Origin: Fimbriimonadales bacterium
GTDB lineage: Bacteria; Armatimonadota; Fimbriimonadia; Fimbriimonadales; GBS-DC
Assembly: GCA_025998675.1 (NCBI GenBank)
Contig: AP024673.1
Location: forward strand, 895,221-959,220
DNA length: 64,000 bases
Direction of reading: 5' to 3'
This document shows, piece by piece, positions 11,363 to 57,385 of this stretch (position 1 is its first letter; the number at the start of each line of letters is the position of its first letter). The notes beneath the pieces are model-generated. The model searched no databases, was not told where the DNA came from, and saw nothing but the letters and a program-made list of their open reading frames with translations. The translations under genes and the position numbers were made by a program.

Positions 11363-11432
11363 CGCAATCCCCGCGTGCAGTATACCCGTCGAGGGCAGGA
11401 ATCGTCCGCTCGGCGGCGTACAGAGGGGGGTA

Positions 11433-11942
11433 ATGCCCTGCCCCGAACTGAAGGATGTGGTGCATGCCCTGCTGTTTGTGGCGGACGCGCCGCTGAGCCT
11501 GCAGACGCTGTGCGAGGCGACCGGCGAGCCTGCCGAGGCGGTAGAGGCGGCGTTGCAGGCGTTGCGCGACGAGCTGGCGGCGCGCGGCGCGATTCAGCTC
11601 GTCCCGCTGGCGGGAGGCTACCAGCTCGCCACCAAGCCCGAGTACGCGTTTTATATCGCCCGCCTGCTGAACCCGCCGCAGAAGCGACTCTCGCGCGCCG
11701 CGCTGGAGACGCTCGCGATTATCGCCTACGAACAGCCCGTCACGCAGGCGCAGATTGACGCCCTGCGCGGGGTGGACAGCAGCCATACCGTGCGCCAGCT
11801 GCTCGCGCGCGGACTGATTCAGGAACTCGGACGCAAAGACGCCCCTGGCAAACCCGCGCTTTACGGAGTCACGCCCCAGTTCCTGCACTACTTCGGACTG
11901 AACAGTCTGGAGGAGCTGCCCGAGAAGCCCCAGAGCGACTAA
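11433..11942 (+). CDS. scpB: Segregation and condensation protein B
   Basis: A 169-residue ScpB, the winged-helix kleisin partner that with ScpA and SMC forms bacterial condensin. The start MPCPELKDVVHALLFVADAPLSLQTL and the centre RLSRAALETLAIIAYEQPVTQAQIDALRGVDSSHTVRQLLARGLI are characteristic. The ATG follows a GAGGGGGG ribosome site. scpA is not in the window. The next gene downstream is the interrupted chemoreceptor, with a 154-base gap. Confidence 0.93.
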   Translation: MPCPELKDVVHALLFVADAPLSLQTLCEATGEPAEAVEAALQALRDELAARGAIQLVPLAGGYQLATKPEYAFYIARLLNPPQKRLSRAALETLAIIAYEQPVTQAQIDALRGVDSSHTVRQLLARGLIQELGRKDAPGKPALYGVTPQFLHYFGLNSLEELPEKPQSD

Positions 11943-12080: not shown

Positions 12081-12182
12081 AGAGGAGAGGTGGATTATGC
12101 ATGTCGTACAAAACATTGGGTGTTCGCTCCATTTGACGGAGCAGGGTTTGGCGCTACGGAAGCAGTTCTTACGCATTACCCC

Positions 12183-12193
12183 GGAGCGGGTAC
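12183..12193. repeat. Target-site duplication, left copy
   Basis: GGAGCGGGTAC directly abutting the left IS end; an identical 11-mer lies at 13632-13642. The length fits IS4-type elements. Confidence 0.9.
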
Positions 12194-12213
12194 CTTAAAG
12201 GGGTAGGTTTTTT
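12194..12213 (+). repeat. IS left terminal inverted repeat
   Basis: CTTAAAGGGGTAGGTTTTTT, perfectly matched in reverse complement by 13612-13631. Read in the chemoreceptor frame it supplies a TAA stop. Confidence 0.93.
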
Positions 12214-12272
12214 GGGGGTAGCCCGACACACAAAAAAAGAGAGCCGCCAACCGATGGGATACAATCCCTACT

Positions 12273-13400
12273 ATGCACACAACGACGGCTCTCGAACGAC
12301 TGGAACAACTATACCTGACCATCCGCACCCATCTGCCACACCTCACAAAACCCCAAGCCTACACCCTCGCCCTCTACAGCTTCGGGATCGTCGCGACCAG
12401 TACCTGCGGACTGACCACCCTCGCGACTTGCCTCGCTCTCCTGCTCAACCAACCCTTCAACACCGTCCGCCAACGCCTGCGCGAATACTATAAAGACGCC
12501 TCCCACAAAAAAGGAACCCACCGACGCGAACTTGACCCCGCCACCTGCTTCGCGCCCCTGATGCGCTGGATTACCCACCTCTGGAGCGATACACGCCTGA
12601 TACTTGCCTTAGACGCCACCACTCTCGGACAACGCTTTACCGCCCTCACGGTCAGTGTGCTGTATCGCGGACGCGCTCTGCCTGTCGCGTGGAAGATACT
12701 CCCTGCCACGCAACAGGGCAGCTGGCGTCCCCACTGGGAAGCCCTGCTGCGCGCGTTGCAGGGGAGCATCCCTGCTTCTTGGACGGTGTTGGTCTGCGCC
12801 GATAGAGGGCTGTACGCCCCGTGGCTGTTTGAGTTGATTACGGCGCTGGGGTGGCATCCGTTTTTGCGCATCAACGCACAAGGGCAGTATCATCTGGAGA
12901 ACGACCCGACGGTGCGCGAGTTGGCGACGGTTGCGCCGTGCGCGGGCACGCACTGGTGCGGGCGTGTGGTGTGTTTCAAAGCGAACCCGTTGCCGTGTAC
13001 GCTGTTGGCGTGCTGGGAAGTTGGGCACAAAGAAGCGTGGCTGATTGTGACCGACCTGTCGCCTGAGGAGGCGTGCGTTGCGTGGTACGCGAAGCGGGCG
13101 TGGATAGAGAGCGGGTTTTCGGACTTGAAGCGTCGGGGCTGGCAGTGGCACAGGACGCAGATGCAGGATGGTGCGCGTGCGGCGCGTGTGTGGTTGGCGT
13201 TGGCGATAGCGACGCTGTGGGTGATGAGCGTTGGGGGTTCTGTGGACGAGGCGCGGTTGGGGGCGCGTGGCAAGGTGAGTTGTTTTCGGTTGGGGCGGCT
13301 GGCGTTGTGGGCGCAGTGGCTTTCGGGGGATGCTGGGGCGTGGGGTATGTTGTCGGATTGGGAGCGTTCGTCGCGTGCGCCGCCGCGTCGGGGCAAGTAG
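12273..13400 (+). CDS. IS4-like DDE transposase
   Basis: A 375-residue transposase. The catalytic acids are Asp in LILALDATTLGQ, Asp in VLVCADRGLYAPWL and Glu in YAKRAWIESGFSDLKRRGWQW. The last is the Y-x2-R-x3-E-x6-K signature of IS4-type enzymes. A helical N-terminal domain precedes the RNase H fold. A TACAAT hexamer at 12260-12265 lies 7 bases before the ATG with no ribosome site, so the element may make a leaderless transcript. Base use on the plus strand shifts from C/A-rich in the first half to G/T-rich in the second. Confidence 0.92.
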   Translation: MHTTTALERLEQLYLTIRTHLPHLTKPQAYTLALYSFGIVATSTCGLTTLATCLALLLNQPFNTVRQRLREYYKDASHKKGTHRRELDPATCFAPLMRWITHLWSDTRLILALDATTLGQRFTALTVSVLYRGRALPVAWKILPATQQGSWRPHWEALLRALQGSIPASWTVLVCADRGLYAPWLFELITALGWHPFLRINAQGQYHLENDPTVRELATVAPCAGTHWCGRVVCFKANPLPCTLLACWEVGHKEAWLIVTDLSPEEACVAWYAKRAWIESGFSDLKRRGWQWHRTQMQDGARAARVWLALAIATLWVMSVGGSVDEARLGARGKVSCFRLGRLALWAQWLSGDAGAWGMLSDWERSSRAPPRRGK

Positions 13401-13548
13401 GTTATGCGTTGTGTGTGCGGCGCGTCTGCGTGCTGTGTGGGGCAGGCGTGTGCGGTTGTTGGCGCGTGGCGGGTGTGTGCAGAGGTGTTTAGGGGTGGGG
13501 TATGGCTGATGTGTGGCTTAGTTGGGCGCGTATTGGGGGGAGACGGCT

Positions 13549-15066
13549 GTGGTGATGTGGCGTTTTTCAGGGTTTTTGGCGGTGTTGGGGAGGCTGGTTT
13601 GTGCCCCTGCGAAAAAACCTACCCCTTTAAGGGAGCGGGTACAGGCGCTTTGCGCCGCGAGTGAGTATCTGGAGCAACTGGCTCCCCAACTTGTCCGCGA
13701 GTTCTACGACTTCCAGTTCCAGTTTTCCGAGACAGTTCACTTTTTCAATCAGTATGCCCAGCAACGCGGGATGTCCCTCGCAACCCTGCGACAACGGCTG
13801 GAGCAGGCGCAGCTTCAGTATTTCCTCGAGATTTTCCGCGAAGCGAAACGCGGCGGCGAGTTTGGCGCCGCGTTCCTCGAGAAGCGCCTTCACATCGGCT
13901 ACATTCATAACGAGATCAACTTACCGATGAAGTGGTATCTCGGCTCCTACGCGCTCTATGCGGAGTTGCTTAAGAAATACCTCTTAGAAAACGCGGAGAT
14001 AGAGCCGCTGCTGGCTCAAGAGGCTTTCGCGGCAATCCTGTCCGTGTTTTTATACGACATTCAGGCGGTGAGCGACTCGTTTATCGTGATGCTGATGCGC
14101 GATCTGGGCGTGGACACCGCTCAGATTCGAGTGGACTCGGCGACGAAGGATTTGACCGATCACTTTGGCGAGGTACGGCGCATTTTCGGGAGCGCCATCC
14201 GGGAAACCGTGCAGACGGGCGCGCAGCTGGAGCGCGCCTCGCAGGAGCTGTCTGAAACGGCAACTCAGACCAAACTTGCGGTGAGCCAGATTGCCTCCGC
14301 GATAGACCAGGTCGCGCGCGTCACAGCGCATCAGGCGCAGCAGACCGCCCATACGACCGAATCTGTGCGACAGCTCACCGCAGGCATTCAGGAAATCGCG
14401 GCAGGCGCGCAGTCGCAGGCGCAATCGGTGCAACGAGCGCTTCTGGTCATCGGGCGCGTCGGCGAGAACATCCGAAAAACTTCGGAGCATGTCGCGGAGA
14501 TGGGGCGCCAGTCGAGCCAGATTAGCGAGATGATTGAGGTCATCAATCAAATCGCTTTCCAGACCCACCTGCTGGCGCTGAACGCCGCGATAGAGGCGGC
14601 GCGTGCGGGCGAGGCAGGACGCGGATTCGCGGTAGTCGCCAAAGAGGTGCAGCAACTCGCCGAACGCTCCGCTCAGTCCGCCAAAGATGTGGGGCGCATC
14701 GTGGCAGAGATTCAGAATGTGGTGAGCGCCGCCGTGCAGTCGATGCAAACCTCTGTGGAGCAGTTCGAGCAGGAGCTGGTGGCAGCCGTGCAGCAGGTGC
14801 AGGAGGTCGTCGTGCAGTACCAATCGGTCGCTCAGAACATGGGCGCGAACGCCGCCGTTGTGCGCGACGCCGTCGAGGAGGTTGCCAGCGCGAGCGAACA
14901 GACCAGTGCGGCAACACAGCAGGTGAGCGCGTCCACTCAGCAGATGGCGGCGCAGGTGGAACAGGTTGCCCAGTGGGCGGCGCAACTCCGCGAGACGGCG
15001 AATACCCTGAAAGACAACCTGCGGTATTTCAAGGTTGCACACGCTCCGCAGGCAGTCGCGGCGTGA
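13549..15066 (+). CDS. Possible IS-driven remnant of the globin-coupled chemoreceptor
   Basis: The part of the chemoreceptor downstream of the insertion remains open and in frame with the IS end. A GTG at 13549 has a GGAG ribosome site 6 bases before it; ATG 13555 and TTG 13522 are alternatives. The product would be about 505 residues with about 28 foreign residues replacing the native first 32, followed by almost the entire globin and signalling domains. Whether it is expressed, and whether the globin domain tolerates the new N-terminus, cannot be read from sequence. Confidence 0.5.
13612..13631 (-). repeat. IS right terminal inverted repeat
   Basis: Exact reverse complement of 12194-12213. 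Confidence 0.93.
13632..13642. repeat. Target-site duplication, right copy
   Basis: GGAGCGGGTAC, identical to 12183-12193. Its GAGCGGGTA codons rejoin the chemoreceptor frame. Confidence 0.9.
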
Positions 15067-15132: not shown

Positions 15133-15768
15133 TCATGGCGCGAGCCTCACGCGCGCCCACAAGCCGTCAGGCTGGCGCGTAAACAGCAGGCGGTCGTGCA
15201 AGCGGTTCCGACGCCCCTGCCAGAACTCAATCGAATCGGGGATGAGCCGATAGCCCGTCCAGTAGGGCGGACGGGGCACAGGGCGACCCTCGAATTCGCG
15301 TTCCACCTCTGCAGCGCGCTGCTCCAGCCACTCACGGCTGGGAATCGACTCGCTCTGGGGCGAGACCCATGCTGCGAGCTGATGCCCCCGCGGCCGACGC
15401 GCAAAATAGGCGTCCGCCTCTGCGTCGCCCACCTGCGTAATCCGTCCCCGGATTCGAATCTGTCGCTCCAGCGCGCCCCACCAGAACACCAGCGTCGCAT
15501 ACGGGCGGTGCGCGAGTTGTCTGCCCTTCGCGCTGTTGCCGTTCGTGTAGAACACCAGCCCTTCGTCGTCCAGCCCGCGTAGCAGCACAAACCGCGCGTC
15601 GGGGTTGCCCTGCTCGTCTACCGTCGCCAGGCACATCGCATTTGGCTCAATCAGGTTCGCCTCGACCGCCGTCTCCAGCCAGCGACGCAGTAGCGCTATT
15701 GGGTCGTCCCCAGCCTCGTCTTCGGTCAACTCGCCCAGCTCATAACTCTTGCGAATATCCTCGATCAC
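15133..15768 (-). CDS. pdxH: Pyridoxamine 5'-phosphate oxidase
   Basis: A 211-residue FMN-dependent oxidase making pyridoxal 5'-phosphate from PNP or PMP. Family landmarks are PNAMCLATVDEQGNPDARFVLLRGLDDEGLVFYTN, SAKGRQL, ALVFWW-type strand ATLVFWWGALERQIRIRG, and the C-terminal signature IEFWQGRRNRLHDR. The GTG at 15768 is preferred: a GGAG site lies at the proper distance inside the end of the DUF1080 gene, whereas a TTG at 15786 would overlap that gene. Only 4 bases separate the two genes, so they share a transcript. PLP supply suits the neighbouring PLP enzymes (alr, threonine aldolase), though this is only suggestive. Confidence 0.93.
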   Translation of the reverse strand: MIEDIRKSYELGELTEDEAGDDPIALLRRWLETAVEANLIEPNAMCLATVDEQGNPDARFVLLRGLDDEGLVFYTNGNSAKGRQLAHRPYATLVFWWGALERQIRIRGRITQVGDAEADAYFARRPRGHQLAAWVSPQSESIPSREWLEQRAAEVEREFEGRPVPRPPYWTGYRLIPDSIEFWQGRRNRLHDRLLFTRQPDGLWARVRLAP

Positions 15769-15772
15769 GGCT

Positions 15773-16429
15773 TTACTCCAGCGCAATCAACTCGACCGTG
15801 CGGAAGTGAATCTCGCCGCCCTCCGACTGGAGCGCAATCTTGCCCGCCAGCACTTCCGCGCCCGTGCCCTCGTTGACCACCTCGCCGTTCACCTTGAGGA
15901 TTACCTGATCGTTGTAGACGATAATCTCGTACTGGTTCCATTCGGGGGCGGGCTTTTCGGCGTTCTTTTTGCGCCAGCGATGCCGCTCCGCGTTTTTGTC
16001 GACATACTCCGGGTCGGTCTGCAGCGGCGCGCCGTCGATGAGCCAGAAGTCGCCCGCGTTCATATGCATCAGCTGCGCCTCCACCGAGCGGGGCCAGATT
16101 TTATGCTCCCCATGCACGCGCAGCAGCACGCCGCTGTTGCCGGGCTTTTTGTCAGGCGCCCAGCGCCATTCGACCTTGAGAATGTAGTTTTTGTAGTCGC
16201 GTTCGGTGTAGATATAGCCCAGCGGTTCGCCCTTGCAGATGAGAATGCCGTCCTCCACGCGCCACACATCCTCCATTCTGGCGTTCGGGTCGGCAAGGTA
16301 CGCCTTCCAGCCCGTCAGGTCGCGCCCGTTGAAGAGCTTGATGACCTGCACGCGCTTACTCTCCTGCGCGCCCAGCACACCGCACGCCAGCGCCAGACTC
16401 CACAGCGCAATAGCCCACAGGATTCGCAT
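15773..16429 (-). CDS. Exported DUF1080 (3-keto-disaccharide hydrolase-like) protein
   Basis: A 218-residue protein with a clear signal peptide ([22 protein letters not shown]). A single DUF1080 domain starts at [16 protein letters not shown] and contains [33 protein letters not shown] and NSGVLLRV. This beta-sandwich family, abundant in Planctomycetota and relatives, includes 3-keto-disaccharide hydrolases and carbohydrate-binding forms. It is probably extracytoplasmic. It is the first gene of a unit with pdxH and divergent from threonine aldolase. Confidence 0.85.
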
Positions 16430-28195: not shown

Positions 28196-29887
28196 ATGCG
28201 CATGCGCTCAGGCTTTTGGATGGCAGGGCTTGTCTTGGCAGGCAGTTTGCACGCTCAGACACTGGTCGATTCAGACCTTACTTACGACACCGTTGTCAGC
28301 AGCGGGCTGTCGTTCCCAATTGCGATGGCGTTTTTAGACCCGTCTGACCCCACGCGCTTTTTCGTGATTGAGAAAGCCAGCGGGCGCGTCAAGCTGGTGC
28401 AAAACGGCGCAGTGGTCAGCACCGTGCTGGACCTGCCCGTGAACAACGCCAGCGAGCGCGGGCTGCTCGGCATCGCGCTGCACCCCGACTTCGCCACAAA
28501 CGGCTATGTCTACCTCTACTACACCCGCTCCAGCACTGGTTCAGACTCCTCCACTTCGTCAGCGTGGACAGATAACCGCGTGGAGCGGTATCGCTGGAAC
28601 GGCTCTGCGTTGGTGGAGCCGACACTGATTGTGGCGTTCCCGCGCGACACCACGCAAAACAACGGTCCCAACCACGATGGGGGCGTCATACTGTTCGGAC
28701 CTGACAGCAAACTCTACGGCGTTACGGGCGACCTGAATCGCGGCACGCTCAGCAACCCGCGTATCGAGCAGAACACCAGCGCGACGGCGGTGGCAGGCGT
28801 GGGCGGCGTCTTTCGGCTCAACCCCGACGGCTCCATCCCGCCCGACAACCCGTTCGTGAGCCATGCCGACCCGCGCATTCAACGGCTGTGGGCGTATGGC
28901 ATCCGCAACAGCTTCGGCATGGACTTCGACAGCCTCACGGCGCGCCTGTGGCTCACCGAAAACGGACCGAATGTGTACGACGAAATCAACCTCGTCGGGC
29001 GCGGCTTCAACAGCGGCTGGCTGAAGCTTATGGGACCCGACTCGCGCAACGCAGCCTACTCGGAGAACGGCAACCAAGCCTACGACGCCAGCGACTTGGT
29101 CTACCTGCCGAACGCCTACTATGCCGACCCTGTCTTCTCGTGGCTGCAACCGATTGGCGTGACGAGCATCGTATTTGTGCGCTCGGCACGGTTCGACGCG
29201 GGCATGCGCGACGAGGTCATCGTCGGCGAGAGCAATAACGGCAGGCTGTATCGCTTCACGATGAACGCCACACGCGACGACTTCGTGCTGACGGGCGCGC
29301 TCGCCGACCGCGTGGCGGATTCTGCGACCGAGCGCAACCTGCAGACCTTCGGCACGAACTGGGGCGTGGTGACCGACTTGCGGGTCGGTCCCGATGGCTA
29401 CCTGTATGTGGTGAGCCTGTACGCGAATCGGGTGTACCGCATCCGTCCTGTGAACCCACCAACGATTGTGTCGGGTCAGGCGCGGCTGGAGGGCAAGCAA
29501 GGGCTGCCGCTGGGCGCGCCGCTCACGCTCGAACTGCGTCAGGACGGCAACACCGTGCAGACCATCACCACAACGCTGGACGCCTACGGGCGGTTCTCGG
29601 AGCGCGTGGCGAGCGCAGGCGTCTACACGGTTCGCGCGAAGGCGGCGGGCTACCTGTCCGTGAGCGTGTCGGGCGTCTCCATCGCGAGCGGCGGCTACGC
29701 CTATCTGAACCTGCGCTTTGAAACGCTGGGCGATGTGAACGGCGACGACCTCATCGACGACGCCGACTTGCTGGCGGTGCTGTTCGCCTTCGGCAGCGAC
29801 GACCCCAGCGCCGACCTGAACAGCGACGGCGTGGTGGACGACGCCGACTTGCTCACCGTGCTGTTCAACTTTGGCGCAGGGGGCTAA
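28196..29887 (+). CDS. Secreted PQQ-type sugar dehydrogenase-like protein with dockerin-like tail
   Basis: A 563-residue exported protein. A signal peptide (MAGLVLAGSLHAQ) precedes a six-bladed propeller of the soluble aldose/glucose dehydrogenase group: GLSFPIAMAFLDP, SERGLLGIALHPDFATNGYVYLYYT, NHDGGVILFGPDSKLYGVTGD, WAYGIRNSFGMDFD, WLTENGPNVYDEINL. A carboxypeptidase-regulatory-like beta domain follows (SGQARLEGKQGLP...LDAYGRFSERV, about 425-510). The final ~50 residues are a dockerin-like pair (GDVNGDDLIDDADLLAVLFAFG and DLNSDGVVDDADLL), ending FGAGG rather than the FGxGC of its neighbours. PQQ dependence is inferred from family. Confidence 0.85.
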   Translation: MRMRSGFWMAGLVLAGSLHAQTLVDSDLTYDTVVSSGLSFPIAMAFLDPSDPTRFFVIEKASGRVKLVQNGAVVSTVLDLPVNNASERGLLGIALHPDFATNGYVYLYYTRSSTGSDSSTSSAWTDNRVERYRWNGSALVEPTLIVAFPRDTTQNNGPNHDGGVILFGPDSKLYGVTGDLNRGTLSNPRIEQNTSATAVAGVGGVFRLNPDGSIPPDNPFVSHADPRIQRLWAYGIRNSFGMDFDSLTARLWLTENGPNVYDEINLVGRGFNSGWLKLMGPDSRNAAYSENGNQAYDASDLVYLPNAYYADPVFSWLQPIGVTSIVFVRSARFDAGMRDEVIVGESNNGRLYRFTMNATRDDFVLTGALADRVADSATERNLQTFGTNWGVVTDLRVGPDGYLYVVSLYANRVYRIRPVNPPTIVSGQARLEGKQGLPLGAPLTLELRQDGNTVQTITTTLDAYGRFSERVASAGVYTVRAKAAGYLSVSVSGVSIASGGYAYLNLRFETLGDVNGDDLIDDADLLAVLFAFGSDDPSADLNSDGVVDDADLLTVLFNFGAGG

Positions 29888-29955
29888 GTTGTCCCCTGCA
29901 CAATTGCCAGATTCGGGCAATTCGCGGAACTTGCGCCCAATTTGTCCGAATCAAA

Positions 29956-29984
29956 GGGTACATTCGGCTGTGCGGCTGCATTAA
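29956..29984 (+). repeat. Conserved leader element, copy 1
   Basis: A 29-base stretch beginning GGGTACATT and ending GGCTGCATTAA, 20 bases before the ATG at 30004. It matches 32839-32867 at 26 of 29 positions, upstream of the paralogous gene. It probably carries the shared promoter, with CATTAA as a weak -10. Confidence 0.6.
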
Positions 29985-30003
29985 TAAACTGGAGGACCCA
30001 ATC

Positions 30004-31119
30004 ATGAAACGGAGCATCTGGATTTTTGGACTCACAGCGAGCGCGCTGTTGGCAAGCCTGAGCGCGCCCGCGCCGGCGCAGAATGTCGAATGCTGTAGCT
30101 ACCAGGTACGGCACAACTTCCGTATCTGCCTGCCGAACTGCCAGTTTTCCTCTGTAGACTGGACATGGCGCACGCAAGCGTCCGCCTGGAACCCGCTCAC
30201 GACGAACACCAACAACGGCACGCAGACCTACAATATCCCCAGCTCGGACACCAAGTGCGCGAATGTCGTCGTAGGTCAGGACTGCGCCTTCGCCACCGCG
30301 TGCGCTCGGTTTCAAGTTGACCCGATTCCGGGCACGCCGTGCATTCGGGGATTCCACGAGGCGTTTGGACGCGCCTGTGTGCGCTGTCGTCGCTACGGCG
30401 CGCAGGCAGTAAGCGCGTCTGCCATCACCATCAACTGCGGAAGCGTGAACTCCGCGGGCACGATTACCTGGCAGCCCCACCTGCAGGATACGATTCAGGG
30501 CGGCTGCGGCGTTCAGATGGTAGACCCTGTGACGCTTCAGCTGGTCAACCCGCGCACGGGCGAGCGGCGCGAAGACAGGCTGTTCGAGCTGCGCTCGCGC
30601 GGTCCGCTCAGCTGGGAAGGGCAGGATGTGGACGGCGACGGCTGGTTTGACGCCGCACGCATCAAGTATTGCTGCCTTCCTGATATAATTGATGGCGGTA
30701 TTGCCGTGTCCATCGGCGGCGAGTCGCTGCGATCTCAGGGCGGACAGCTGGAGATTGAGGTTCAACGCGGCATCGTAACGCGCGCCTCCAAGAGCGGCGT
30801 CTTCGACGGCGTCCAGCTGCCGAATGTGGGCGACCCCATGCCTGCAGAGATTGAGGTTCCCGCCGAGTTTGACCTGTCGTTCGAAGCTCCGCAGGGCTGG
30901 CAGTTGGCGGCGCTTCAGATTGGCGGCGGCGGCGAGTCGGGCGGCACGCCTCCCCCGCCGGGCGATGTGGATGGCAACGGCTGCGTGGACGACGCCGACC
31001 TATTGCAGGTGCTGTTCGCCTTTGGCGGTCAGGGCGGCGAAGCGGATGTGAACGGCGACGGCATCGTCGACGACGCCGATTTGCTGATTGTGCTGTTCAA
31101 CTTCGGCGCGGGATGCTGA
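30004..31119 (+). CDS. Secreted Cys-rich protein with dockerin-like tail (paralogue A)
   Basis: A 371-residue exported protein of unknown function. The signal peptide ends at APAPAQ. The next ~230 residues hold a Cys-rich domain: CCSYQVRHNFRICLPNC, then about ten further Cys including CIRGFHEAFGRACVRCR. A short EF-like DVDGDGWFDAARI follows. A Gly/Pro hinge (GGGGESGGTPPPP) leads to the tandem dockerin-like cassette GDVDGNGCVDDADLL / DVNGDGIVDDADLL and the end NFGAGC. The protein is paralogous throughout to 32887-34011. GGAGGA ribosome site before the ATG. A hairpin terminator follows. Confidence 0.8.
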   Translation: MKRSIWIFGLTASALLASLSAPAPAQNVECCSYQVRHNFRICLPNCQFSSVDWTWRTQASAWNPLTTNTNNGTQTYNIPSSDTKCANVVVGQDCAFATACARFQVDPIPGTPCIRGFHEAFGRACVRCRRYGAQAVSASAITINCGSVNSAGTITWQPHLQDTIQGGCGVQMVDPVTLQLVNPRTGERREDRLFELRSRGPLSWEGQDVDGDGWFDAARIKYCCLPDIIDGGIAVSIGGESLRSQGGQLEIEVQRGIVTRASKSGVFDGVQLPNVGDPMPAEIEVPAEFDLSFEAPQGWQLAALQIGGGGESGGTPPPPGDVDGNGCVDDADLLQVLFAFGGQGGEADVNGDGIVDDADLLIVLFNFGAGC

Positions 31120-31142
31120 TCTTCTCCCCCCTCTCGCTCAAC

Positions 31143-31169
31143 ACTCCCCGCCTGAGTCAGGCGGGGAGT
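31143..31169 (+). terminator. Hairpin terminator after paralogue A
   Basis: ACTCCCCGCC and GGCGGGGAGT form a perfect 10-bp stem around TGAGTCA, itself able to pair further, followed by TTT. Confidence 0.75.
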
Positions 31170-31196
31170 TTCAACACACGAGCGAGGGTTCTGTGC

Positions 31197-31202
31197 TATA
31201 AT
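31197..31202 (+). promoter_or_regulatory. -10 hexamer upstream of gene 31220
   Basis: Perfect TATAAT 17 bases before the ATG with a GTGAGGTG ribosome site between, i.e. a short normal leader. Confidence 0.5.
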
Positions 31203-31219
31203 ATCGGGTGAGGTGCATA

Positions 31220-32791
31220 ATGAACCGAAAGAGAGCGATTGGAATAACAATCGCGATGCTTTTCGCGTCGTCTGTCATGGCGCAAAATAATGTGCAGATT
31301 ACCATCAATCTGGTGAACCCGGTGCTGAACGAGTACCAGATGACGGTTCAGAACAACAACACGGGCTGGTGGGTGGATCAGACGCATGTGCTGTATACCA
31401 CCGCAGGGGTTTTGCAGGCGACCAACACGCCGCCCAGCTGGGCACACCTGCCTGATGTGCCCTGGGACGCCATCCCCCACAACCTGCGCTTTGAGGCAAG
31501 CACGCCTGCAGCGCGGATTGCGCCGGGCGCGTCCCAGACCTTCGGCTTCAAAATGAACACGCCCACCCCCGTCGAGGACTGGTACATCCAGTTTCGCGTG
31601 GTGAATGCAAGCAACGCCACCAAAGAGTACGCCTTTCGCGTCAAGGTACAACAGACGCTGCCGACGCCCAAGGACGCAGTGGGCGCAACCGCGGGACAGT
31701 TCGCCTATCCGGGCAATAGCGAAGTGCGCTTCCAGTACGACTACGAGTATGCGACACCCGCCACCCAGTTTGCACACAGGGTGCTGGACGCCGATTCAAC
31801 GGAACGCGATCGCGTGTTCTACCCCGAAATACCCGACCCGCCCCACCTGGAACACTACTTCATAGGCAACCTCGCGCGCGATGTGGACGCCAATGGGGGC
31901 ACAGCCGGCGAACTGTGGGCGTTCGAATCGGAACACGCTCACTGGTGCAGCGGGAGTAATGGGTTTCAGTCGCTGCGCTGGCTGAGGGATGGAACCCCCA
32001 TCCCGCTGTTGCCCATGTCGTGGCGGTTCGCGCCGTCGGTGCGCCAGAGCGATGGCTCGCGCAGGGTACAGCTTACGGTGGAGAATCGCGGCAATAGAGA
32101 GCTTCGCGGCGACCTCTACCTCTACACGCAGGGAACGCAGTTATTGCGGGGGAGCGCGCTGCTGAACTGGCGTGCCCTCTTCCGACCGGACCTGCAGCAA
32201 CCGCTCACCCTCCAGCCGCGTCAATCGGCGACGATTGAATTCCTCGTGCCTGCCAGCGCTCCCGCCACGCGCTTTTTCTACGCGGAGTTCAGCAGCGGCG
32301 CGAATCGGCTCACATGGGCGCAGCAGGAAATCAACAGCCCGATACTGATTGGCTATCTGGGCGCGCTGGGCGCGAACCGCCCCGTGCGAGTGCAGGTAAT
32401 TAACCCCAACACGGGCGGCAGCCTCAATAAACTCACCATCGCCGATGCACGCGGGGTCTGGCGCATCCCGCTAGAGGACGGCGATGAGGCTATCCTGGAC
32501 GATTCGGGCTTCTACACACCCGTGTGGCTGGTGACGGTCAAGGCACGGGGCGCACTCTCGCAGCTGTTCACAGAGGTGCTGTTGCCCGGCGGCGACACGC
32601 TCGACCCCTACCTGCGTTCGCAGCTTGTGCTGGGCGATGTGAACGGCGACGATTGTATCGACGACGCCGACCTGTTGCTGGTGCTTTTCAACTTCGGCAG
32701 CGGCAACGCTCCCGCGGACCTGAACCTCGATGGCGTGGTGGACGACGCCGATTTGCTTCTGGTGCTGTTCAACTTCGGCGCAGGGTGCTGA
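31220..32791 (+). CDS. Secreted beta-rich protein with dockerin-like tail
   Basis: A 523-residue exported protein of unknown function. A signal peptide (AIGITIAMLFASSVMAQ) precedes about 440 residues that look beta-rich and Ig-like (NNVQITINLVNPVLNEYQMTV, RVQLTVENRGNRELRGDLYLYT, LQPRQSATIEFLVPASA). No enzyme motif is recognised. The C-terminal cassette is GDVNGDDCIDDADLLLVLFNFG / DLNLDGVVDDADLLLVLFNFGAGC. ATG 31220 is chosen over GTG 31208 because of the ribosome site and the signal peptide start MNRKRAIG. It lies between the paralogous pair. Confidence 0.8.
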   Translation: MNRKRAIGITIAMLFASSVMAQNNVQITINLVNPVLNEYQMTVQNNNTGWWVDQTHVLYTTAGVLQATNTPPSWAHLPDVPWDAIPHNLRFEASTPAARIAPGASQTFGFKMNTPTPVEDWYIQFRVVNASNATKEYAFRVKVQQTLPTPKDAVGATAGQFAYPGNSEVRFQYDYEYATPATQFAHRVLDADSTERDRVFYPEIPDPPHLEHYFIGNLARDVDANGGTAGELWAFESEHAHWCSGSNGFQSLRWLRDGTPIPLLPMSWRFAPSVRQSDGSRRVQLTVENRGNRELRGDLYLYTQGTQLLRGSALLNWRALFRPDLQQPLTLQPRQSATIEFLVPASAPATRFFYAEFSSGANRLTWAQQEINSPILIGYLGALGANRPVRVQVINPNTGGSLNKLTIADARGVWRIPLEDGDEAILDDSGFYTPVWLVTVKARGALSQLFTEVLLPGGDTLDPYLRSQLVLGDVNGDDCIDDADLLLVLFNFGSGNAPADLNLDGVVDDADLLLVLFNFGAGC

Positions 32792-32838
32792 ACCGCGTCC
32801 TACACAAATGCCGCGCCAACGAATTCGTTGCTCTACAT

Positions 32839-32867
32839 GGGTACATTGGACTGTGTGGCTGCATTAA
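32839..32867 (+). repeat. Conserved leader element, copy 2
   Basis: Twenty-six of 29 bases match 29956-29984 and the position relative to the ATG is the same (19 bases). The leader thus duplicated together with the gene. Confidence 0.6.
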
Positions 32868-32886
32868 GAGAATGGAGGATGAAACC

Positions 32887-34011
32887 ATGCGACGACATTA
32901 CGGGATATTGGCGATATTGGCGATTGCCTTTAGCGCACTGACGACCACGATGGCGCAGAACCAGCAACCATGCTGTCGCTTCCGAGTCGTGCATAACTTC
33001 AGGGTGTGCCTGCCGCAGGGCTGTCAGCCACAGGTGACATGGACATGGAACACGCTGGCGGCAGTGTGGGATTTGAACAACCTGCCGCCTATCATCAACA
33101 CGAACAGCGGGACGCAAACTTATAGCGTGCCCAGCAACGACAACCAGAGTACGCAGGCGGTAATTACCGTCGGGAATCAGACCTGCGCGAGCGCCTTCGC
33201 CTCAGCGGGGTTTAATATCAGCTGGATTCCAGGCAGCCCTAACTGCGTGCAGGGGGCGCACTACGCCAACGGCAGTGCCTGCGCCTTCTGCCGCATGCAC
33301 GGCGCGAACGCGGGCGCGAACTCGCACATCACGATTGCCTGCCCCAGCATGACACAGGGGACGGTAGTCTGGCAACCCTTCCTGCAGGATTTCGTCGGCG
33401 GCGAGTGCAGCACGCAGATGTATGACCCCGTTATCGTCAGAGCCATTGACCCCTCAGGACAGCCTCAGAATATCGAGTTGTTCAGCCTGCGTGGACGCGG
33501 CTTCCAGTGGCAGGGGCAAGATGTCGACGGCGACGGCTGGTACGACGATGCTCGTATCAGAGGCAATGAGCCTCGCAAAGTCGGTTATGTCACGCTCCTG
33601 AAAGGAAGAACAGACGGCGCAGTGTCCCGCTTGCGACTGGCTTGGGACGACGACGGAATCATTACAGAGTCGGAAGCCACGGGCGAATTCGCAGATATTC
33701 AACTCCCTCAGGTCGGCGAACCGCTGCCAGATGAGGGTGTTCGTGTGCCCGCGACTTTCGAACTTCCGTTTGAACTCCCCGACGGCTGGTCTGTCGAATC
33801 CATCGAGATGGGCGGGGGCGGGGTAGCCGGGCAGGACATCCCGCGCACGCCTGGCGATGTGAACGGCGACGGCTGTGTGGATGACGCTGATTTGCTGGCA
33901 GTGCTGTTCGCCTTCGGCGGTGAAGGCGGCGAGGCAGATGTGAACGGCGACGGCATCGTCGACGACGCCGACCTGCTGATTGTGCTGTTCAACTTCGGCG
34001 CAGGGTGCTAA
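32887..34011 (+). CDS. Secreted Cys-rich protein with dockerin-like tail (paralogue B)
   Basis: A 374-residue exported protein paralogous to 30004-31119. The signal peptide ends TTTMAQ. CCRFRVVHNFRVCLPQGC, NSGTQTYSVPSND and GSACAFCRMHGANA align with the equivalent segments of the other copy, as does DVDGDGWYDDARI. The tail is GDVNGDGCVDDADLL / DVNGDGIVDDADLL, ending NFGAGC. GGAGG ribosome site at 32874-32878. Its TAA overlaps the convergent serA stop by 4 bases, leaving no room for a separate terminator. Confidence 0.8.
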   Translation: MRRHYGILAILAIAFSALTTTMAQNQQPCCRFRVVHNFRVCLPQGCQPQVTWTWNTLAAVWDLNNLPPIINTNSGTQTYSVPSNDNQSTQAVITVGNQTCASAFASAGFNISWIPGSPNCVQGAHYANGSACAFCRMHGANAGANSHITIACPSMTQGTVVWQPFLQDFVGGECSTQMYDPVIVRAIDPSGQPQNIELFSLRGRGFQWQGQDVDGDGWYDDARIRGNEPRKVGYVTLLKGRTDGAVSRLRLAWDDDGIITESEATGEFADIQLPQVGEPLPDEGVRVPATFELPFELPDGWSVESIEMGGGGVAGQDIPRTPGDVNGDGCVDDADLLAVLFAFGGEGGEADVNGDGIVDDADLLIVLFNFGAGC

Positions 34012-35207
34012 AGCGCCACAAGCGTCGCCGCGAAGATGCTCTCGTGGCTGCGGATGGCATGCAGGGTGTCCTCTGGTGGCGCGCTATCGAGCTGGATGCG
34101 CGCCACCGCCGCCTCCGCGCCCGCGAAGATAATATTCTCCGTCTCCTGCACATTGATGTTCGCCTCGCGAAGGCAGTCGAACACATGCGCGAGAACGCCC
34201 ACCCGATCCAGATGGCGCACCACCAGCAGGTACTTGGCGGGCGTGCGGTCGGCAAGGTTGACCACATTCGGCACGCGCCCGGTGTGCATATAGGTCTGCA
34301 CGATATGCACCACCTCGGCGGCGATGGCTTCCTGCGCCTGCTGGGTGGACGCGCCGATGTGATGCGTGCCGTACACCAGCGGTAGGTTCGCCAGTGGGTT
34401 CTGGAACGCGCCCTCCCCTGCGCTGGGTTCGCCTTCAAACACATCCAGCCCCGCGCGGATTTCCTTCTCACGCACCGCCCACGCAAGCGCGTCCTCGTCC
34501 ACCACCTCAGAGCGCGCCGTGTTGATGAAGTACGCCCCGCGCCGCATCGCCTCGAAGAAGGCGCGATTGCATAGATGCCTTGTGTCGGGGGTCAGGGCGA
34601 CATGCACGCTCACGATATCCGCTTCGCTGGCGACATCGAGGGGCGTGGCGCGATAGCCAACGCCGAATTGCTCCGCGCGTTCAGGGGTGAGCGAGCGGCT
34701 CCACGCAATCACGCGCAGCCCGAACGCCCGCGCGCGGATAATCATCTCGCGCCCGATGTTGCCCACGCCAATCAGCCCCAGCGTGCAGCCATACACGCCC
34801 CGCGCGACGCTGAACTCTTTTTTGTTCCACTGCCCTGCGCGCAGCTGCGCCACATTGTCGGGAATGCGCCGATCCAGCGATAGGATGAGCCCGAACGCCA
34901 GCTCCGCCACAGCAATCGCGTTTTTGCCGGGGCAGTTGGCGACATAAATCCCCAGGCGCGAGGCGGTCGCCACATCGATGGTGTTGACGCCCGCGCCCGC
35001 GCGTATCACCAGGCTCAGTTGCCCCGCCTCCAGCATCGGCGCCGTGACTTTCGTGGAGCGCACCACCAGCACATCGGGGTTGTGTGTGCGGATGGCGTCT
35101 ACCAGCGCGTCGTCCTTGAGGCTGGGGTCGTACACCACGCTGCAGCCCAGCGCTTTCAGCCCCTCCAGCCCGCTCTGCTCAAACTTATCCGCGACGAGGA
35201 TCTTCAT
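34008..35207 (-). CDS. serA: D-3-phosphoglycerate dehydrogenase with ACT domain
   Basis: A 399-residue NAD-dependent dehydrogenase opening serine synthesis. The nucleotide fold is GCTLGLIGVGNIGREMIIRARAFG. The catalytic residues are Arg in NTARSEVVDE, Glu in DVFEGEPSAGEG and His in GTHHIGAST. The last ~75 residues form an ACT regulatory domain (YLLVVRHLDRVGVLAHVFDCLREANINVQE), so feedback by serine is likely. It is the shorter form without the extra ASB domain. It has a GGAGG site and sits within the surface-protein cluster without obvious functional link. Confidence 0.93.
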   Translation of the reverse strand: MKILVADKFEQSGLEGLKALGCSVVYDPSLKDDALVDAIRTHNPDVLVVRSTKVTAPMLEAGQLSLVIRAGAGVNTIDVATASRLGIYVANCPGKNAIAVAELAFGLILSLDRRIPDNVAQLRAGQWNKKEFSVARGVYGCTLGLIGVGNIGREMIIRARAFGLRVIAWSRSLTPERAEQFGVGYRATPLDVASEADIVSVHVALTPDTRHLCNRAFFEAMRRGAYFINTARSEVVDEDALAWAVREKEIRAGLDVFEGEPSAGEGAFQNPLANLPLVYGTHHIGASTQQAQEAIAAEVVHIVQTYMHTGRVPNVVNLADRTPAKYLLVVRHLDRVGVLAHVFDCLREANINVQETENIIFAGAEAAVARIQLDSAPPEDTLHAIRSHESIFAATLVAL

Positions 35208-35270
35208 CGAGTGCCTCCGTATTGCCTGTTCGCCATCTCACGCGAGACTCCTGCGCGCGAATCGCCGCTG

Positions 35271-35299
35271 GTACGAAGTGCGGAGGTGCAGCTTCTGCG
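35271..35299 (+). repeat. Interspersed palindromic repeat, degenerate copy
   Basis: GTACGAAGTGCGG then GGTGCAGCTTCTGCG matches 60875-60903 at 24 of 29 positions. A partly complementary arm (GAAGC...CACTCC) follows to about 35328. The 282-base gap 35208-35489 otherwise holds only the -10-like sequence of the next gene. Confidence 0.5.
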
Positions 35300-35449
35300 A
35301 ACGCCGAAGCAGACGCATCCACACTCCAGAAGACGCGCCTGCGTCATGCGCGGACAGGGGGACGGCTGAAAACTTACAGCAACGACACTCAGAGATAATT
35401 TGCTGTCTCTGATACGCCAACGGAAGGAACTCATCTTGCCATCAAGAAG

Positions 35450-35455
35450 TATAAT
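35450..35455 (+). promoter_or_regulatory. -10 hexamer of the propeller-protein gene
   Basis: Perfect TATAAT 34 bases before the ATG at 35490. TTGCCA at 35436 is too close to serve as its -35. Confidence 0.4.
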
Positions 35456-35489
35456 TCCTACGAAACTTACTGGCGGTCGGAGGAAGACG

Positions 35490-38429
35490 ATGCGGACGAT
35501 AAGCATACTCGTTATGGCGCTGCTTGTGTGCATGGGGGATGCACAAGATCGGATTTCTGCGCGAGCGCAGCTTCTCCACTTTGCGCCCACCCAGTTGGCG
35601 TTCCAGCCCGATGGACGCCATCTTGTGATGATGCGTCACGACTTCATGGCACTCTACGATACGCTCCAGAACAAAGTTGTTCGTGTGATGACACCCCAGC
35701 AGATTGGAGCGGCCTTGTTTGTGGACACCAACGGCTCCATGATAGCCGTGACTCAGCAATCTGCCCCTGCTGTTTACGAAACGAACACTCTGCGTCTGAT
35801 TCGCAGATTCGACTCCTCTCTCGAGCTCCTTCGGCTTTCGCCGACGGGCGCTTGGGTTGCGTTGCGCAGCCGCGGTCAAAGCAGCGCAACTATCTACTTT
35901 GTGAACCTGTACGATGGTCGTTCATACAGTTATACCCATGATAATTTATATTCACATTTTTACGCCGTTCTGAGGTATCCCAAGGTATGCTTTGCTCCAG
36001 ATGAACAGCGCGCGGTTGTGGTCGTCGCGCTACGAGACCCTGCGCCTCCTCAAGCGTTTGTGATTCGCCTGACGGACGGCGCTGTGGAGAATCAGTTTGA
36101 GTTCGGGCACGCAGACACGCTACCGATAGGACTATCTGTCTCTCCAACAGGGCGCTCGATGGCGGTCTTCGCGTGGCACCGCGAAGCCACTACAGGCGAT
36201 CTATTGTATCTGGACCTGCAGACAGGAAGCGAGCAAAATCTTAGTGGAATGGCTGAAGTGGATCGCACGGGCATTGCCTGGCTCTCAGACGAGACTCTAT
36301 TGTTCGGTACAGGTTATGAAATCCTGACTTTTACCAACGGCATCCGACAAAAGGCGATTGCGACAGGATTTGCCGCGTGGGATATTGCGGTACAACCAGG
36401 TACGCAGCGCCTTTTCGCCGCCCATAGACAGGGCGTGCACACGATAGACGCTGAAGACGCGCAATCCACTGTTTATGAAGGCAGAACCCCTCAGGCGTTC
36501 TGGGCTTACCACTATACCCTGCTTTCCCCAAACCGCGAGTGGGTGGTCGTGCCGAAGTTCGACGGTATCGCTCGCCAGTGGGGGCTATCCCTACTCCGGG
36601 CGCGCGATCTGACAGAAATACGCTGGATAGCCACTGGCAGCTTGACACCCCCCCTCGCGATTTCCAACGACGCGCAACGGCTGGTAATCTTCTCAGGGGG
36701 TGGACTGTTCCGCATGATTGATGTGGATTCGGGGCAAACGCTCTGGCAGCGCACCTACTCTTCGTCGGCAACCCCTTCAGCCCTCTTCATCCCTGATGGC
36801 AGTGGAATTATCCTATGCCTTGGAAACCAGCTGTACCGCATCGACAACGGGGGCAACCAGTTGTGGCAGACCCAGATTCCAGCGTTCTCCTTGAGACCAT
36901 TTGCCCTGACCGCCGATAACAAAATCCTCGCCCTGCGCGGCATGTTCAACCGCAGCGAGCTGATTCAAATCGATTTGGAAACGCTGGAGGTAGGAATACT
37001 TTATCAGGGCTTCCACGGACTTCAACACGCCGCTCTGACCCCGGACGGCGACTACCTGGCGCTCAGCCGAAGAGACAGCAGCGACTTCTGCAGTATCCTT
37101 CTCTTCCGATACCCCTCAATGGAACAGGTAACAGCGCTGCTAATTGAAAACTACTATTACTATGATCCTGTTGCTGGTCTCCAGCGTATCCCTGTGGCTC
37201 TGGACTCCTACGCGGGCAATAACGAGTTCCATGTGCTTGCTTTGGGAACCGTGAACATTATCGACGCTGAAACAGCGCGCCTCGTGCGTCGTATCCCCCT
37301 GCAGGACCCTTATGGGAGCGCTTTCTGGCGTACTCCGAACGGCTGGATTACCCACACCGCCAGTACTACAGAACAGAACCCCCTACTTGTATTCCACTAC
37401 GCCAGCGACACGCCGCGAATTAGCGCCATTTCAGTTCCTGCTGCCAGAGCGGTGTTTGCAGACGAGCAACAGGTGCTTTTCTCAGGCGATATCGGCGGCG
37501 TCTTATGGAACACGAACGCCGAGCCGTGGGACTACCAGCGACTTGCCATCTTCTTGCGCGAGTTTGCAGGCAGTGGAACGATAGGAGGCGCCTGCGTTGT
37601 GGGAGAGGGTTACCTCGTGACGATGGGTTTTCAGGGAAGTGGATACTACTGGTATGCATATGAGTGGCCGACACTGCGCTTTCTCACAGGCAACTCCCTC
37701 GCCTATGGCGACCTACTTGCGAGGCGGTACGATTCTTTTGTGCGCGACCGAGAGCTCTACAACTGGGTTACAGGGCAAGCTGTGTGGCGCATCGCCGACA
37801 CGGGGTTATCGGGTATCCGGTCTGTGACCTTCTCTCCAAACGGGCACTACGCCTTGATTTGGCTGAACTCTGGCGTCTCGTGGATGTACGACACCCGCAC
37901 GAACCAGCCGCTCTGGAGTCGGGCGCAAGACCTGTCCTTAGCCAAATTCTCTCTTGACTCGCGCTACCTTCTGAACTATTCCAGCGTGTACGATGTGCAG
38001 ACAGGCGCCCTTGTGCTCTCCGCACCCCAGCTCCAATCTGCAGTCTACTTCGACGGGCGCTTCGCTGTGTTGTCTGAACGAACTCCAGAAGGCGTCAGCG
38101 TGTATCGCATTGTGGACTTCCCCACAATGCGCGTAATTGCCCAGCTCGACGCAACTCAGACAGTCACAACTTACGATGTGAGTTTCGCGGCTTCCCCCGA
38201 CAACCGATGGCTTATGTTCACCGCGCGTGAGTACAGTGCCCTGTTCCCCAATCCCTACGGTCGGGTGGAAGGCGACGCGAATCTGGATGGCTGCGTGGAC
38301 GACGCCGATTTGCTGCTTGTGTTGTTCAGCTTCTCCAGCACGGGAGGGCTCGCAGACCTCACCTTCGACGGGATAGTGGACGACGCTGATCTGCTGCGCG
38401 TACTCCTAAACTTCGGGAACGGCTGCTGA
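35490..38429 (+). CDS. Large secreted beta-propeller protein with dockerin-like tail
   Basis: A 979-residue exported protein. A signal peptide (MRTISILVMALLVCMGDAQ) is followed by many WD40/YVTN-like propeller blades across about 30-930 (FQPDGRHLVMMRHDFMALYDTL, SPTGRSMAVFAWHREATTGDLLYLDL, SPNGHYALIWLNSGVSWMYDTRT). The C-terminus is a dockerin-like pair (GDANLDGCVDDADLLLVLFSF / DLTFDGIVDDADLLRVLLNFGNGC). GGAGGA ribosome site; the upstream in-frame extension from 35400 lacks a signal and is not used. Function unknown; binding or display is likelier than catalysis. Confidence 0.82.
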   Translation: MRTISILVMALLVCMGDAQDRISARAQLLHFAPTQLAFQPDGRHLVMMRHDFMALYDTLQNKVVRVMTPQQIGAALFVDTNGSMIAVTQQSAPAVYETNTLRLIRRFDSSLELLRLSPTGAWVALRSRGQSSATIYFVNLYDGRSYSYTHDNLYSHFYAVLRYPKVCFAPDEQRAVVVVALRDPAPPQAFVIRLTDGAVENQFEFGHADTLPIGLSVSPTGRSMAVFAWHREATTGDLLYLDLQTGSEQNLSGMAEVDRTGIAWLSDETLLFGTGYEILTFTNGIRQKAIATGFAAWDIAVQPGTQRLFAAHRQGVHTIDAEDAQSTVYEGRTPQAFWAYHYTLLSPNREWVVVPKFDGIARQWGLSLLRARDLTEIRWIATGSLTPPLAISNDAQRLVIFSGGGLFRMIDVDSGQTLWQRTYSSSATPSALFIPDGSGIILCLGNQLYRIDNGGNQLWQTQIPAFSLRPFALTADNKILALRGMFNRSELIQIDLETLEVGILYQGFHGLQHAALTPDGDYLALSRRDSSDFCSILLFRYPSMEQVTALLIENYYYYDPVAGLQRIPVALDSYAGNNEFHVLALGTVNIIDAETARLVRRIPLQDPYGSAFWRTPNGWITHTASTTEQNPLLVFHYASDTPRISAISVPAARAVFADEQQVLFSGDIGGVLWNTNAEPWDYQRLAIFLREFAGSGTIGGACVVGEGYLVTMGFQGSGYYWYAYEWPTLRFLTGNSLAYGDLLARRYDSFVRDRELYNWVTGQAVWRIADTGLSGIRSVTFSPNGHYALIWLNSGVSWMYDTRTNQPLWSRAQDLSLAKFSLDSRYLLNYSSVYDVQTGALVLSAPQLQSAVYFDGRFAVLSERTPEGVSVYRIVDFPTMRVIAQLDATQTVTTYDVSFAASPDNRWLMFTAREYSALFPNPYGRVEGDANLDGCVDDADLLLVLFSFSSTGGLADLTFDGIVDDADLLRVLLNFGNGC

Positions 38430-57085: not shown

Positions 57086-57096
57086 GGGGTATGGGG

Positions 57097-57385
57097 CTTA
57101 AGGGGGAGGTTTTTTCGCAACCTGCCTGTAGAGAAGACGGCGAAAGCCGTTCCTATCCAACCAAGCCGACCTGCGTCGGCTCAGCCCCCCAGCCACCGCA
57201 GGCAGGGTGTAGGGGCGCACGGCTGTGCGCCCCTACATAACCACGCGCCCCTGCAAAAGGCAACAGCCCGCGCAGGCAGGCTTCGTGTTGTAGGAACGGC
57301 TTCAGCAGTCGTGCGAACGCGCGCGTTTCCATATTCTGGGTACGCCCCCCCACGGCGCACACCTCAAAAAAACTACCCCTCTAAG
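57097..57385. mobile_element. Possible MITE or IS remnant with IS4-like ends
   Basis: The left end CTTAAGGGGGAGGTTTTTTC continues as CGCA, like the right end of the IS at 13631. The right end read inward is CTTAGAGGGGTAGTTTTTTT. Both resemble the 20-bp repeat of that IS but have diverged. The ~289-base interior has no gene; it holds an AGCCGA/TCGGCT stem, a palindromic repeat at 57209-57236 and a run of C. No convincing target duplication is visible. The right end supplies the stop codon of the helicase gene. Confidence 0.5.
57209..57236. repeat. Interspersed palindromic repeat
   Basis: Arms GTAGGGGCGCAC and GTGCGCCCCTAC around a 4-base loop, a relative of the two units at 22905-22975. Confidence 0.7.

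Follow-up and report, generated by a model that had tools for sequence, protein, structure and literature searches.

An insertion sequence within a predicted HemAT-type receptor gene

The window, i.e. the whole stretch of 64,000 nucleotides analyzed here, contains a gene for a putative oxygen-sensing chemoreceptor (HemAT1) that is split by an insertion sequence (IS), which raises the question whether the receptor has been lost, can be restored by excision of the element or is produced from a start within the IS. The features of the locus are compiled in Table 1. As the original prediction had stated, the element possesses perfect 20-bp ends and is flanked by an 11-bp direct repeat; comparison of the bases in both flanks showed that this duplication is exactly 11 bp and no longer. 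The insertion point lies in codon 33 of HemAT1. The claim that exclusion of bases 12194-13642 rebuilds the receptor gene was likewise confirmed: when 12097-12193 is fused to 13643-15066, 506 residues are read without interruption up to the stop codon, and an IS-free HemAT1 is defined by the junction in which ...CCGGAGCGGGTAC is directly joined to AGGCGCTTT.

Table 1. Positions of the features at the interrupted HemAT1 locus, in window coordinates
Feature	Position	Strand	Remarks
scpB-like gene, upstream conserved neighbour	11391..11942	+	
HemAT1 5' fragment	12097..12198	+	32 native residues, then 1 residue and TAA from the IS end (12196-12198)
Target duplication, left copy, GGAGCGGGTAC	12183..12193	+	11 bp
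IS4-family insertion sequence (by sequence hallmarks)	12194..13631	+	1,438 bp; identical second copy at G000:C1:484758-486195
Left terminal inverted repeat, CTTAAAGGGGTAGGTTTTTT	12194..12213	+	
Transposase, 375 aa	12273..13400	+	DDE_Tnp_1 7.5e-12; NF033591 (IS4) 2.5e-31, score under the cut-off
Open frame from IS right end into HemAT1	13522..15066	+	Protoglobin 7.9e-20
Candidate starts	GTG 13549, GTG 13552, ATG 13555	+	downstream of GGGGGGAG (13535-13542)
Right terminal inverted repeat	13612..13631	-	20/20 match to left end
Target duplication, right copy, GGAGCGGGTAC	13632..13642	+	11 bp
HemAT1 3' part	13643..15066	+	remaining globin domain and MCP signalling domain
pdxH-like gene, downstream conserved neighbour	15133..15786	-	

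The rejoined protein matches Pfam Protoglobin over residues 16-177 (1.2e-23), in agreement with the globin homology expected for its N-terminal part, and MCPsignal (PF00015, 1.6e-36). HemAT1 contains the conserved hairpin-tip sequence of the MCP signalling domain; unlike intact members of this family, however, it is split at codon 33. The start codon is supported by the orthologs, in which the ATG is conserved together with a purine-rich ribosome-binding site. Candidate sigma-28-like boxes lie upstream of the HemAT1 orthologs but are too weak in the window copy to be claimed.

The structure of the sensor domain was predicted for the intact ortholog of the related genome G007 (pLDDT 90). This model matches HemAT of Bacillus subtilis (HemAT-Bs) with a Z score of 18.4 and 2.0 Å over 151 residues and also other globin-coupled sensors (matched entries 1OR4, 2W31 and 8H17). 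In the alignment of the HemAT1 family, Tyr54 is invariant and His121, which aligns to the histidine of HemAT-Bs, is nearly invariant; from the residue roles in HemAT-Bs we take these to be the distal tyrosine and the proximal histidine, respectively. Hence, HemAT1 orthologs share with HemAT-Bs (PDB 1OR4/1OR6) the globin fold, the histidine in IH..I.LP.KWY, the tyrosine of FY and the layout of a soluble protein with a globin and an MCP signalling part, whereas HemAT1 is only ~17% identical to HemAT-Bs and is interrupted; binding of heme and O2 and steering of swimming would be its putative functions. Taken together, homology and the structural model identify the split gene as that of a predicted HemAT-type globin-coupled chemoreceptor. 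According to the G007 model, the IS cuts the protein in the first turn of a long helix starting near residue 29. The native part of the 5' fragment comprises the N-terminal extension and the Z helix, and the IS cuts off this extension, together with a short conserved helix at residues 15-24 that carries an invariant Arg, from the remaining HemAT1.

The element carries the hallmarks of the IS4 family

IS4-family elements are characterized by a D(60-110)D(100-150)E triad, the signature Y(2)R(3)E(6)K, a single ORF and a duplicated target that spans roughly one turn of the helix (PMC2266710, De Palmenaer 2008). The transposase of the element harbors the catalytic triad D114, D177 and E279, the spacing of which, D(62)D(101)E, lies inside this range, as well as the signature (YAKRAWIESGFSDLK, residues 272-286). 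It is encoded by a single ORF of 375 aa without a frameshift, and the duplication of 11 bp corresponds to about one helix turn. By these published hallmarks the 1,438-bp element is classified as an IS4-family insertion sequence, although NF033591, the NCBIfam IS4 transposase model, scores it with 109 bits, under the cut-off of 152, and the combination of its CT-ends with an 11-bp duplication is not an exact match to any of the listed subgroups. Ends with 5'-CT have been described for IS10, ISPepr1 and some IS50 elements, all with duplications of 7-9 bp, while duplications of 10-13 bp pair with -AATR ends in subgroup IS4 (PMC2266710); for 5'-CTTAAAGG ends with an 11-bp duplication, Table 1 of that study holds no matching subgroup row. 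A comparison of the transposase with solved structures yielded no meaningful match.

Copies, origin and age of the insertion

The genome containing the window, a single contig of 2.99 Mb, has only one other full copy of the element, which is 100% identical over 1,438 bp and flanked by its own, different 11-bp duplication CGCCGCGCGGG. A search for the transposase in the genome contigs returned one relative only. A copy with 93.6% identity, whose ends are perfect and which is flanked by an 11-bp duplication of its own target (CTCCGTGAGGT), is found in 'Armatimonadetes bacterium DC' (LDYB01000025.1), so that an 11-bp target duplication is seen at three independent sites. Chance repeats are ruled out by the second genomic copy and its own duplication. 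The HemAT-type gene of Armatimonadetes bacterium DC has the same contig coordinates as that of G016, which belongs to another genus of the same family, and the two are very probably one and the same genome. Among other species of the genus to which the window belongs, even the most similar copies are far more divergent (47% protein identity), which suggests lateral transfer of the IS.

The original prediction considered the insertion young, partly because of the perfect ends. In an active IS, perfect ends are the norm and are maintained; alone they give no date, and this argument had to be dropped. The young age itself is supported by the identity of the copies, the empty site in relatives described below and the undamaged frame. 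There is no difference between the two genomic copies in 1,438 bp, the 11-bp duplication is intact and the 506 codons of HemAT1 carry no other lesion. dN/dS between HemAT1 orthologs ranges from 0.05 to 0.14, with 0.10 between the window gene and G007, its nearest intact ortholog. Selection has therefore acted on HemAT1 through most of its past, and because of the identical copies, the intact duplication, the lack of further lesions and the dN/dS of 0.10, an insertion that is recent relative to species divergence (dS about 1) is supported, although these data set no absolute date.

The IS copies at L002 and L043 lie within or beside G+C-rich palindromic repeats (CCCCTCTCCCGCCGCGCGGGAGAGGGG; GGTTCCCCCTGC..GCAGGGG), possibly a target preference of the IS. 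Short elements with IS-like ends (2-4 mismatches) occur at 57096-57385 of the window and at L051 1501-1707 (G000:C1:741923-742129). Beyond the two full copies, the genome contains 12 near-matches to the IS end, compared with 0 for the reversed control, and the short elements are probably decayed, non-autonomous (MITE-like) members of one family.

A candidate translation start in the right end of the IS

Since the right end of the IS is open in the frame of the receptor and the HemAT1 frame downstream is undamaged, translation might start within the IS and give rise to a globin-MCP protein that lacks the native Z helix and may bind heme and signal. Three in-frame start codons lie 6-12 bases downstream of GGGGGGAG, although Shine-Dalgarno-like runs of this kind arise by chance in G-rich sequence, and a related IS lacks the ATG, which argues that the fusion is accidental. 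Transposase and receptor frame share their direction; a promoter scan of the region around the IS, however, revealed no site above chance near the IS end. Protoglobin is still detected in the fusion frame, and in the model of the fusion the globin core is intact (pLDDT 87) and matches HemAT-Bs with a Z score of 15.7, as compared to 18.4 for the intact ortholog. Against this stand the low model confidence and the hydrophobic character of the new N-terminus and the conservation of the displaced N-terminal segment, including its invariant Arg, in relatives. We thus consider the production of a receptor from the IS end unlikely.

HemAT1 is intact, damaged or absent in related genomes

HemAT1 is flanked by two genes that we take to be scpB and pdxH, names that were recognized from sequence and not by a family search. 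Between these neighbours, HemAT1 is present in intact form and without the IS in G007 (82% identity to the window gene over the globin part) and G011. The gene is hence uninterrupted in relatives, and a separate gene beginning in the IS end is not a universal feature of the locus, in line with the original view that an IS has entered a gene for a HemAT-type receptor, which is further substantiated by the second identical copy with its own duplication. An assembly or annotation artefact, or two parts that have always been separate genes, is extremely improbable in view of the target duplication, of the second, identical copy next to another duplicated target and of the uninterrupted syntenic orthologs; the intact syntenic orthologs rule out both.

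The genome G008, the HemAT1 of which is the sister of the window gene in the gene tree (support 99/97), has an empty target site with a single copy of AGAGCGGGTAC, identical to GGAGCGGGTAC in 10/11 positions. Its HemAT1 (G008:C6; L074 3884-4746) nevertheless carries a 655-bp internal frameshifting deletion that removes codons 141-356 and joins the globin and signalling domains, a lesion which, judged by its sequence, is independent of the IS insertion in the window. In G002, G003, G004 and G010, scpB directly adjoins pdxH and HemAT1 is absent between them. These HemAT1-less loci and the G008 deletion are known from draft assemblies. In G006, one contig leads from scpB into HemAT1 and ends at residue 92, while a second contig has 45 bases of the scpB 3' end in common with it and then passes directly to pdxH (L105 end; L075 1770-1990); presence and absence of HemAT1 may therefore coexist in G006.

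HemAT1 as a probably dispensable paralog

Apart from HemAT1, the window's genome encodes an intact second HemAT paralog, HemAT2 (508 aa), which is also intact in most of the genus. In all, six MCP signalling domains were detected above the cut-off, and with HemAT2 and four other chemoreceptors remaining, the interruption of HemAT1 does not imply a loss of aerotaxis. CheW-domain proteins and flagellins were found in this genome as well.

We consider it likely that a recent insertion of an IS4-family element inactivates HemAT1, a dispensable paralog that has been lost repeatedly, and that O2 sensing probably proceeds via HemAT2. The dispensability and repeated loss are indicated by the G008 deletion, the scpB-pdxH loci devoid of HemAT1 and the branching in G006. 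An active cut-and-paste element has entered codon 33 and duplicated 11 bp, and the 5' part of HemAT1 now terminates after 33 residues at the TAA inside the IS. As the native promoter and start appear to be cut off from the receptor, native HemAT1 is presumably not made. HemAT1 would thus be an extra O2-sensing receptor lost repeatedly in the genus, where we infer loss instead of gain although the scpB-pdxH arrangement devoid of the gene might be the ancestral one, and oxygen sensing would probably continue via HemAT2.

The original prediction had proposed that the element could excise and bring back aerotaxis, or that it could be a polymorphism, which would mean that IS-carrying and IS-free cells occur side by side. 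While all sequence needed for an exact restoration of HemAT1 is present, and presence and absence of the gene may coexist in G006, the branching there concerns the gene and not the IS of the window, and the single-contig assembly displays one allele. Moreover, cut-and-paste transposition of the IS4 type leaves a gap instead of healing the site exactly, and precise excision seldom occurs. Because of this general behaviour the IS is unlikely to act as a regular reversible switch, and we regard the coexistence of both forms as very improbable; literature searches for precise excision and for insertion sequences of Armatimonadetes returned nothing specific. Repeated loss of a dispensable paralog is better supported than a reversible switch. 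The IS in the window, the deletion in G008 and the presence/absence branching in G006 might also be read together as signs of a contingency-like locus, at which fluctuating selection on oxygen taxis would lead to repeated inactivation or deletion and perhaps regain of HemAT1 while HemAT2 is kept, a scenario that we deem rather unlikely.

As a gene interruption, the insertion in the window is routine IS biology, the value of which lies in a clean, recent jump with the empty site known in relatives; it adds an IS4-like element that belongs to none of the subgroups exactly, as well as several short elements with similar ends. Only the parallel lesion of the sister species, drawn from draft assemblies, goes beyond routine: if sister species have lost one oxygen receptor in parallel, they would provide a small case in which the turnover of chemoreceptor paralogs can be tested.

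Two further observations concern neighbouring subjects. In G003:C32 (4346-6840), a HemAT-type receptor is flanked by two CheW-domain genes and clusters in the tree with HemATs from other genera. Elsewhere in the window (28196-38429), a dockerin-like motif occurs twice in a row at the end of several adjacent ORFs (GDVNGDGCVDDADLLxVLFxFG...ADVNGDGIVDDADLLIVLFNFG).
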